Virus record (IMG/VR): IMGVR_UViG_3300034073_003883
Location: 1 to 20,651 of that record
Source of the DNA: a virus
Reading direction: 5' to 3' (one strand)
DNA: 20,651 bases
Numbering within the stretch: position 1 is the first letter of the stretch; the number at the start of each line of letters is the position of its first letter. Made by a program: the position numbers and the translations under genes. Below, one piece after another: positions 7,927 through 20,527 of this stretch. The notes beneath the pieces are model-generated. The model saw nothing but the letters and a program-made list of their open reading frames with translations, did no database searches and had not been told where the DNA came from.

Positions 7927-9639
7927 TCAAACTACGTTCTTTTTTATTATGTAATTATGAACTACAAGTATATCCATTTCACAATTTAAAAAAGTTTTAA
8001 TTGCCGTTTCTGGATCTAAAACCATCGTTTGGTCTTTTAAATTAAATGAAGTGTTTAAAACTATTGGATATCCATTATCAACATTTAATTGTTTAAGAAG
8101 TGCATACATTCTTCTATGTTGTTTCATATTTACAGTTTGTATTCGTGCACTACCATCTACGTGAGTTATTGCAGGTAAATAACTTCTATGTTCTTCTTTA
8201 ACCTTTACAACTTGATTCATGTAAGGAACTGGAAACTTATAATCAAAATATTTTGTTAATTCTTCTTCTTTAACAATAGGTGCAAATGGACGGAATCCTT
8301 CACGTTTTTTTACAACTCTATTCAATCGTTGTTTCATTTGCGGGTCACGTGGATTTGCTAAAATTGAACGATTACCAAGAGCACGAGAACCAAATTCCAT
8401 TCTACCTTCGAACCAACCAACAACATTTCCATCTGTTATTTCTTTACTTATAATTGGAATTATTTCACTATTATTTTTAAACTCATAATAGATGTAATCT
8501 TTATACTTTTCTAATATAGGTAATACCGTTTCATTAGACCAATACGGTCCTAAAAAAGGATTGACGTTTTCAGGTCTATCTTTAATACCCGACTCTGTGT
8601 AATAATAAAAAAGAGCAGCTCCAATTGCCGAACCAGCGTCAGATGGTGCAGGTGGAATCCATATATTTTTATAATTTGTTTTTTCTAAAATTTTACCATT
8701 TGCAGTTCCATTATAAACACATCCCCCGCTAAGGCAAAGATTATGTGTTGGATTATTAACATATAATTTATTTAGTAGTCTAAAAAAGTAGTGCTCATAT
8801 TCATGTTGAAGAGTTGCAGCTAAATCTTTGTGATCTTGTGTAATCGGGTCTTCTGGTAATCTATTTGAAATTCCTAAAACATCAATTAATTTTTGATTAA
8901 ACATATTCTCATCAGACCAATCATACGTAAAATACTTCATATTAATTTTAAAACCACCGTCATCTGTTGGTGTAATTAACTTTGAAAATTTAGAAAGATA
9001 TTTTTTATAATCACCATAAGGTGCAAGTCCCATAACTTTATATTCACCTTCATTTGGTTTAAAACCCAAAAATGCGGTAATTGTTGAATATAACATACCC
9101 AACGAATGGGGAAATTTAATTGATTCAATTTTACTTATTACATTCGATTCTGCATAAAATAAAGCAGTGGTATCCCATTCACCCACACCATCTACTGAAA
9201 GAATTGCTGACTTTTCAAAAGGTGATGTGTAATATGCATATGCAGCGTGAGAGTGATGATGACTTCCATAAACAATTTTAACATCATCGCGTGTTATATC
9301 AGTCATCAATTTTTGATGTTCTGATATTTGATTTTTATTTCTTGAATATATTGAATTTCTTTTAAATAAATTTTTAAACCCACCCCTTTGTAATGACTTT
9401 TCGATTCTATCAAGTTTTTCAAATGGATTTTCATAGAAACAAATGGCATAGATATCAGAACCAGTTATTGAATTATTATTTAATAACCAATTAATTGAAT
9501 TAGAAGGAAATGAAGAGTCATGTTTTATTCCTGTAAATCGTTCTTCTTCTACTGCTCCTAAAACTATTCCATTTTTAATTAATGCTGCTGCTGAATCATG
9601 ATAACCAGCAGAAATTCCAAGTATATATTTATCAATCAT
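7927..9639 (-). CDS. O-carbamoyltransferase, NodU/TobZ/CmcH family
   Basis: A 570-aa full-length member of the family that transfers a carbamoyl group from carbamoyl phosphate, through an ATP-derived carbamoyl-adenylate, to a hydroxyl of an acceptor. The N-terminal Kae1-like ASKHA domain opens with ILGISAGYHDSAAALIKNG (7-24). The metal-binding HHHSHAA motif is at 127-133, followed by SVDGVGEWDTT (148-158) and NEGEYKVMGLAPYG (196-209). SGGCVYNGTANG is near 304-315 and PAPSDAGSAIGAAL near 330-343. The C-terminal YrdC-like domain carries EFGSRALGNRSILANPRD. The acceptor is not deducible; phage homologues are suspected of modifying DNA bases or cell-surface glycans. The start overlaps the sigma gene's stop by 8 bp, and the gene is closed by a terminator, so it is co-transcribed with the sigma gene. 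Confidence 0.93.
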   Translation of the reverse strand: MIDKYILGISAGYHDSAAALIKNGIVLGAVEEERFTGIKHDSSFPSNSINWLLNNNSITGSDIYAICFYENPFEKLDRIEKSLQRGGFKNLFKRNSIYSRNKNQISEHQKLMTDITRDDVKIVYGSHHHSHAAYAYYTSPFEKSAILSVDGVGEWDTTALFYAESNVISKIESIKFPHSLGMLYSTITAFLGFKPNEGEYKVMGLAPYGDYKKYLSKFSKLITPTDDGGFKINMKYFTYDWSDENMFNQKLIDVLGISNRLPEDPITQDHKDLAATLQHEYEHYFFRLLNKLYVNNPTHNLCLSGGCVYNGTANGKILEKTNYKNIWIPPAPSDAGSAIGAALFYYYTESGIKDRPENVNPFLGPYWSNETVLPILEKYKDYIYYEFKNNSEIIPIISKEITDGNVVGWFEGRMEFGSRALGNRSILANPRDPQMKQRLNRVVKKREGFRPFAPIVKEEELTKYFDYKFPVPYMNQVVKVKEEHRSYLPAITHVDGSARIQTVNMKQHRRMYALLKQLNVDNGYPIVLNTSFNLKDQTMVLDPETAIKTFLNCEMDILVVHNYIIKKNVV

Positions 9640-19677: not shown

Positions 19678-20064
19678 TTATGAGAGTTTAATTCTCTTGG
19701 CTTTTCGTTCTTCTTTTTTATCAACTGTAAGTGTTAAAAGACCGTTGTTGAAGGCTGCCTTTGTTGTTGTTCCATCATATTCTTCACCAAGTTTAAATGA
19801 AAAATCAAGGTCATTTACAAAAGCCGATGAACCCTCGGGTTTAATTGAACTAACATGAATATGTGTATCAGTCACATCAAGATTAATATTTGATTTATCA
19901 TGACCGACAGCATTTACATTAATTTCAAGTAACCCATCTTTGTTAATTCTTGATTCATAAACCGCATTTTTGTAATAATATTTATTAAGATTATCAAATC
20001 TTAATCTACTTGGTGTATATAAAATATCATCCAAAAGTGCGTCAAATGAAGTAATGTTTGTCAT
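19678..20064 (-). CDS. Small heat-shock protein, Hsp20/alpha-crystallin family
   Basis: A 128-aa chaperone that holds unfolding proteins. The alpha-crystallin domain spans about residues 35-118: EINVNAVGHDKSNINLDVTD (47-66) corresponds to the first conserved region, DFSFKLGEEYD (86-96) to the middle, and AAFNNGLLTLTV (103-114) is the A-x-x-x-N-G-[VL]-L signature. The tail ends KRIKLS, a version of the I-x-I/L anchor used for oligomer assembly. A strong AGGAG Shine-Dalgarno sequence lies 9 nt before the ATG. Hsp20 genes are common in T4-like phages of aquatic bacteria. Here the gene stands alone between a two-site operator-like promoter region and a terminator, suggesting dedicated control. 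Confidence 0.95.
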   Translation of the reverse strand: MTNITSFDALLDDILYTPSRLRFDNLNKYYYKNAVYESRINKDGLLEINVNAVGHDKSNINLDVTDTHIHVSSIKPEGSSAFVNDLDFSFKLGEEYDGTTTKAAFNNGLLTLTVDKKEERKAKRIKLS

Positions 20065-20118
20065 ATTTTTTATCTCCTGTTAAGGTTATTTGGTTATTTG
20101 TTTTATAGTATTTAAACA

Positions 20119-20147
20119 ATTATCATACCAACTTTTATTTGTCACAA
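20119..20147 (-). promoter_or_regulatory. Candidate hsp20 promoter overlapping the operator
   Basis: On the minus strand TTGTGA (20147-20142), a 17-nt spacer and GATAAT (20124-20119), 4/6 and 5/6 matches to sigma-70. The -35 lies inside the operator-like repeat copy nearer the gene. A second possible -10, TATAAA at 20107-20102, lies closer to the start. Neither is proven. Confidence 0.5.
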
Positions 20148-20170
20148 ATATTTACTAAATTTGTGACAAA
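20138..20170 (-). promoter_or_regulatory. Paired operator-like repeat upstream of hsp20
   Basis: A perfect 12-bp inverted repeat TTTGTCACAAAT / ATTTGTGACAAA (20138-20149 and 20159-20170) with a 9-nt spacer. Each arm is itself a palindrome around one base (TTTGT-S-ACAAA), so the region also reads as two copies of an 11-bp site with centres 22 bp apart, two turns of the helix. One copy overlaps the candidate -35. The arm/9-nt/arm layout is like CIRCE, although the arm sequence is different. No T tract follows on the minus strand, which argues against a terminator. Confidence 0.65.
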
Positions 20171-20192: not shown

Positions 20193-20207
20193 ATGACAGA
20201 ATGTCAT
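20193..20207 (-). repeat. Small inverted repeat at the end of the 107-aa gene
   Basis: ATGACA-GAA-TGTCAT, a perfect 6-bp inverted repeat with a 3-nt loop, overlapping the TGA stop of the 107-aa gene. It shares the TGTCA core with the paired operator nearby and could be a further weak site or a small mRNA hairpin. Confidence 0.45.
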
Positions 20208-20527
20208 TCTTCTATCTGTCTTTTTGTCAGAACTCTGTATAATAATTCTAATTCTTCTTCGGTTTTACAGACACCAAGACCAACATAGTCTGCTAATTCA
20301 ACCAAAAATTGCCCTTTATCAACTCCCATTTGTTTCCATTCATCCTCAATAGAAGAAATTAAAAGAGGTGCATTTGGATCTGGATTGTCTTTTGGAATTG
20401 GAAGTATAAAATAAACATATTCATCATCGTCATCTTTTTCTTCTATTTTCTCCCAACCCTGTCTTTTAAATGTTTCTTCGGTTATGGAAGTTTCGGAAAT
20501 AAAATACAATTCATCGTTATACTTCAT
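20204..20527 (-). CDS. Small acidic protein, unknown
   Basis: A 107-aa protein with no recognised family. It begins MKYNDELYFISETSITEETF, has a short acidic run (EEKDDDDEYVYF, about 29-40), a Pro-rich turn (PIPKDNPDPNAP, about 43-54) and a helical C-terminal half (about 58-107) with one Cys. The alternation of strand, turn and helices suggests a small globular domain. Its ATG overlaps the stop of the partial gene upstream (ATGA), so it belongs to a transcript coming from the right of the window. It is followed by the 139-nt hsp20 control region. Confidence 0.75.
   Translation of the reverse strand: MKYNDELYFISETSITEETFKRQGWEKIEEKDDDDEYVYFILPIPKDNPDPNAPLLISSIEDEWKQMGVDKGQFLVELADYVGLGVCKTEEELELLYRVLTKRQIEE

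Follow-up and report, generated by a model that had tools for sequence, protein, structure and literature searches.

The window, by which we mean the whole stretch of 20,651 nt that was analysed, comes from a tailed phage; it is a fragment of 20.6 kb that contains baseplate-wedge genes, and auxiliary genes are abundant between positions 7927 and 18107 (carbamoyltransferase, AdoMet decarboxylase, thymidylate synthase, peptide deformylase, UvdE endonuclease and a flavodoxin-like reductase). On its minus strand, an hsp20 gene for a 128-aa alpha-crystallin protein (19678-20064; PF00011, E 2.7e-8) starts with the ATG at 20064 and lies downstream of a 107-aa gene on the same strand for which no family was found (20204-20527). 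An unstranded 33-bp inverted repeat, TTTGTCACAAA-N11-TTTGTGACAAA, occupies 20138-20170, on the 3' side of the 107-aa gene, past its stop codon, and 73 nt from the hsp20 ATG. As a sequence-only reading of this DNA had described, its 12-nt arms (20138-20149 and 20159-20170, read on the plus strand) are 100% complementary and separated by 9 nt, and the same element can also be read as paired palindromic 11-mers of the form TTTGTSACAAA, TTTGTCACAAA at 20138-20148 and TTTGTGACAAA at 20160-20170, centred 22 bp apart. The window, which is the entire assembly of this record, has no further exact copy. Taken singly, 11-mers that differ at two positions or fewer are not above chance (16 observed, 20.2 expected), but the pair stands out: shuffling the bases of the window 200 times produced none with zero to two mismatches, and 0.025 per window with three.

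Two further elements lie close to the repeat. The small TGTCA-type repeat announced by the same reading is indeed present as the unstranded 13-bp heat-shock-type palindrome TGACAGAATGTCA (20194-20206), which overlaps the TGA stop codon of the upstream gene. On the hsp20 side, GGTATGATAATTG (20117-20129, minus strand) is a candidate promoter core; by inspection, relatives and hosts have a similar block, GGTAT-N5-TTG-like and placed 13 nt past the palindrome in relatives L157 and L158 and hosts L174 and L175. The type of promoter and the hosts of the site-bearing phages pT24 and Panino suggest a Bacteroidota as the host of the phage.

The same site in bacterial genomes

When 84,980 bacterial and archaeal species, each represented by one genome, were searched with the site pattern, 76 loci came up, and those with spacer 11 were mostly from Bacteroidota. 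The search of candidate host genomes that had been proposed from the sequence thus recovered the same 33-bp architecture, mainly before DUF6088 (AbiEi-like) genes, which lie just downstream in 57 of these pattern-found loci, about 10-25 nt away (median 18 nt for spacer 11). As the 76 loci were picked by pattern, the converse test was run from DUF6088 genes in an unbiased sample, 199 genomes from the family of a Flavobacterium. DUF6088 was present in 22 of them, and 12 of 13 canonical DUF6088 genes carried the site (up to four mismatches allowed), which began 47-62 nt ahead of the gene and had spacer 11 in every case. The gene after DUF6088 was an AbiEii toxin in all 24 cases scanned. The DUF6088 proteins matched the AbiEi_4 model weakly in 13 of 20 cases and the TAA_AbiEi model, below its cut-off, in 19 of 20; a DUF6088 profile gave sub-threshold matches only against PDB, two of them to AbiEi/AbiGI HTH segments. 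Because DUF6088 and AbiEii genes follow the site and DUF6088 is weakly similar to AbiEi models, these genome comparisons show the 33-bp site to be the predicted operator of DUF6088 AbiEi-like antitoxin-repressors in AbiE-like type IV toxin-antitoxin operons of Bacteroidota, where the DUF6088 proteins are presumably autoregulators. A consensus is thereby obtained for the DUF6088 operator, and no description of a DUF6088 binding site was found in the literature searched.

The -7 box of Bacteroidota promoters has the consensus TAnnTTTG. Across 47 spacer-11 DUF6088 operators, this box was found in the direction of the gene only in 36, in both directions in four and in the reverse direction only in none, and it straddles the spacer and the second arm. 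Because the box runs in the gene direction, the DUF6088 operator includes the promoter core and is an operator-promoter. A promoter made of the two arms as -33 and -7 elements was rejected, the spacing of 22 being unsuitable, and a loxP/dif-like recombination site, considered for its arm-spacer-arm layout, was abandoned when the copies in genomes were recognised as promoters of DUF6088 genes.

In the unbiased host set, the centres of the arms co-vary (CAC/GTG, AAC/GTT, CCC/GGG), with symmetric changes across hosts such as TTGTCCCAAA/TTTGGGACAA. Since the arm centres vary together, the site is probably a single inverted repeat read half by half and not two independent palindromes. Such symmetric variation would fit pairs of AbiEi-like monomers better than two independent dimers, and the earlier picture of two repressor or activator dimers bound side by side is not retained.

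Published operators of AbiEi proteins (AbiEi of Streptococcus agalactiae and Rv2827c of M. tuberculosis) are inverted repeats of 23 bp, 3 or 13 bp apart (PMC7319586). As in AbiEi autoregulation, the DUF6088 systems combine an antitoxin-repressor and a partner of AbiEii type with inverted repeats that lie in pairs over the promoter, and negative autoregulation is expected (PMC7319586), but the arms here are of 12 bp with a 9-nt spacer, the proteins are of the DUF6088 subfamily, and in the phage, where no antitoxin gene was detected, an unrelated gene bears the site. More distant DUF6088 homologues (L358-L361, L363-L366) have different inverted repeats upstream (GTCCAGTTT...AAACTGGAC; GTCAAGT...ACTTGAC). 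Outside Bacteroidota (L074, L080, L106, L137, L142 and others), DUF6088 operators are of the spacer-12 form, and this spacer often contains a TATACT-like -10 box, while in Halobacteriovoraceae/Oligoflexia (L097, L101, L121, L131) the same repeat lies over the end of a gene, with no DUF6088 promoter.

The window element has arms of the TTTGTNACAAA type and spacer 11, and on the plus strand all its 33 bases are those of five DUF6088 operators (L085, L086, L102, L114 from Kaistella haifensis and L124 from Chryseobacterium). It is followed by hsp20 instead of a DUF6088 gene with an AbiEii partner, and a profile search found no DUF6088 gene in the window record. As the window 33-mer is identical on the plus strand to the host operators, its match to the -7 box, TAAATTTG (20156-20163, plus strand), faces away from hsp20, an assignment based on the sequence and the orientation statistics of the host operators. 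The element thus resembles a DUF6088/AbiEi-like operator but is no autoregulatory copy. It had been suggested that the phage captured a site of a host stress regulator; the host type of the site is borne out, but the site is of the class that belongs to AbiEi-like antitoxin-repressors and not a heat-shock site.

The site in phage genomes

A scan of IMG/VR allowing spacers of 8-14 gave 43 contigs, 40 of them with spacer 11 (30) or 12 (10); counts of distinct phages are approximate, since many contigs are near copies, and the start codons of phage loci are mechanical calls. HSP20 is encoded in four of 28 exact-site phage records and in all four the site lies directly before hsp20, at 73 nt in the window, 67 nt in L004/L012 (one lineage) and 80 nt in L041. 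The hsp20 genes of the window, L004/L012 and L041 are unrelated to each other. The repeat before hsp20 is therefore no accident of one phage, as it recurs there in two unrelated lineages. Among the 28 site-bearing records, DUF6088 was detected in L036 only, in its own operon, and there was none in 35 further phage records or in the complete phages pT24 and Panino, so that nearly all phage records searched have no detectable DUF6088 gene, with a model that finds the family where it is present (L036; 22 of the 199 genomes).

The isolates pT24 (Tenacibaculum phage) and Panino (Maribacter phage) thus carry the site and lack DUF6088. In pT24 it lies 82 nt before a gene, and a further inverted repeat, TTTTTAACAC...GTGTTAAAAA, encloses the operator (L344, about 2480-2550). 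In Panino it lies between tRNA-Tyr and tRNA-Ser, and in L017/L038 and L026 after tRNA-Cys. These operators between the genes of phage tRNA arrays are at 347-379 in L017, 9126-9158 in L038, 1854-1886 in L026 and about 2498-2532 in L345; in L038 and Panino the next tRNA is a few nucleotides past the operator. Other copies stand about 136 nt before recA/uvsX-like phage genes.

With a degenerate pattern, sites turned up in 20 of 38 phage records, whereas the reversed control pattern gave one; many of these records had been chosen for having a site, so that the additional copies are the informative part. DUF6088-less phages have one to three sites, at times of different specificity variants (CAC, TAC and CCC types in G002), and the phage copies show the host variants CAC, AAC, CCC and TATGTCAC. 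The related phages G085 and G089 share an HNH gene, and 17 nt ahead of it, at one and the same locus, they have TATGTCAC...GTGACATA and TTTGTCCC...GGGACGAA, respectively. The two variants (L382, 1050-1082; L383, 1073-1105) differ by concerted changes of both arms, which argues for selection by a DNA-binding protein. The arm centres are non-complementary in 12 of 30 distinct phage sites. Hybrids of one CAC arm and one AAC arm occur in L189, L198, L199, L205, L208 and L214; none was seen among the 12 unbiased host operators.

The hsp20 promoter of related phages

A close-relative search with the hsp20 protein found none in IMG/VR or INPHARED. An alignment-based search gave 75 phage loci with a related hsp20 which, together with the window, make 59 distinct upstream regions. 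The palindrome TGACAN3TGTCA is present in 54 of the 59 and occurs twice in 23, in 18 of these exactly 32 bp apart. The window has a single copy (20194-20206), with the 33-bp site in the position of the second copy of its relatives; in the relative L270 a partly decayed 33-bp site is found at the same place. Most related hsp20 phages are without the 33-bp element and keep TGACAN3TGTCA instead, an outcome that the sequence-only reading had itself named as counting against its proposal that the repeat controls hsp20.

In host genomes, an exact match to the relaxed form TGNCAN3TGNCA was found before hsp20 in five of 19 cases (Fisher 8e-6) and before groES in six of 13 (Fisher 3e-8), compared with two of 305 control ORFs. 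Of the two window elements, TGACAGAATGTCA at 20194-20206 matches it and the 33-bp element, a distinct site, does not. Given its presence in 54 of the 59 phage regions and its enrichment ahead of groES and hsp20 in hosts, the small palindrome appears to be the conserved heat-shock-type control of the phage hsp20, with the 33-bp site as a probable added layer. For Bacteroidota we propose a candidate heat-shock element, TGNCAN3TGNCA; no published name was found for this palindrome before groES/hsp20 of the group.

Possible roles of the phage copy

With moderate confidence, we read the 33-bp element as a complete copy of a DUF6088-family operator placed at the phage hsp20 promoter, where an AbiEi-like repressor of the host would bind and tune hsp20. 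Both the binding of a host protein to this copy and the sign of the control are inferred. The host DUF6088 protein would occupy both arms as a pair and, with one arm over the -33/-35 region of the candidate hsp20 promoter, repress the gene; if the element's own -7 box drives transcription of the plus strand, this would be repressed likewise. Repression would end if the DUF6088 protein were missing or lost, or if replicating phage DNA titrated it, and a heat-shock regulator would work at the adjacent TGACAN3TGTCA. Many hosts would lack the regulator, as DUF6088 is in only 22 of the 199 genomes sampled around a Flavobacterium. The orientation of the -7 box away from hsp20, its absence from the L004 element and the lack of the element in most related hsp20 phages speak against this model.

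Phages lacking a DUF6088 operon appear to have taken over the binding site of its regulator. More tentatively, Bacteroidota phages without AbiE may hold host AbiEi-like operators in variants that follow those of their hosts, such that the defence state of the host switches hsp20, recA, tRNA arrays and HNH genes, or the repressor is drawn off its own operon. If true, the expression of phage genes would be coupled directly to a host regulator of abortive infection. In the literature searched, we found no report of such cross-talk, and nothing relevant on phage decoys of toxin-antitoxin operators or on AbiEi in Bacteroidetes. Both TGNCAN3TGNCA and the phage operators are open to testing in cultured strains and the isolated phages pT24 and Panino.

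An unlikely alternative is that the copies serve mainly as decoys which titrate the host antitoxin-repressor and upset the AbiE defence operon, the placement at hsp20 being secondary. The one to three sites of DUF6088-less phages, sometimes of different variants, and the hybrid or non-complementary arms would suit such a function, but so few sites make a poor sponge, and many are at promoter positions (hsp20, 17 nt before the HNH gene, a few nucleotides before tRNAs, upstream of recA). We give still less weight to a regulator encoded by the phage itself, whose AbiEi-like DNA-binding domain the family models would miss. It could lie elsewhere in the genome, as the window is a 20.6-kb fragment, and in several phages two or more promoters bear a site, as in a small regulon; however, the complete pT24, Panino and other large records have no DUF6088 match, and the phage variants match host operators.

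That the element acts in RNA, as a 3'-end hairpin or terminator of the upstream gene, is highly improbable. It lies past that gene's stop codon and its predicted fold is of -13.8 kcal/mol (z -2.3), but the stem is AT-rich, unlike the G+C-rich stem of an intrinsic terminator, no U-run follows, and the arm centre is unpaired in the 12 of 30 phage sites; moreover, the -7 box lies inside the element in DUF6088 operons, which therefore would not transcribe it wholly. We attach hardly any probability to a captured, functionless piece of a DUF6088 promoter: the box facing away from hsp20 and the decayed copy in L270 would agree with it, but all 33 bases are intact in the window and the site recurs independently before hsp20 in unrelated phages.

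The CIRCE/HrcA element is an inverted repeat with a 9-nt spacer before a heat-shock gene, a layout that the window element shares and that had been pointed out from the sequence. A CIRCE-like heat-shock operator for hsp20 was nevertheless rejected as the least credible reading, since the arms are unrelated to those of TTAGCACTC-N9-GAGTGCTAA, the chromosomal copies of the 33-bp site belong to DUF6088 genes and not to chaperones, and the groES and hsp20 genes of the host clade bear TGNCAN3TGNCA.
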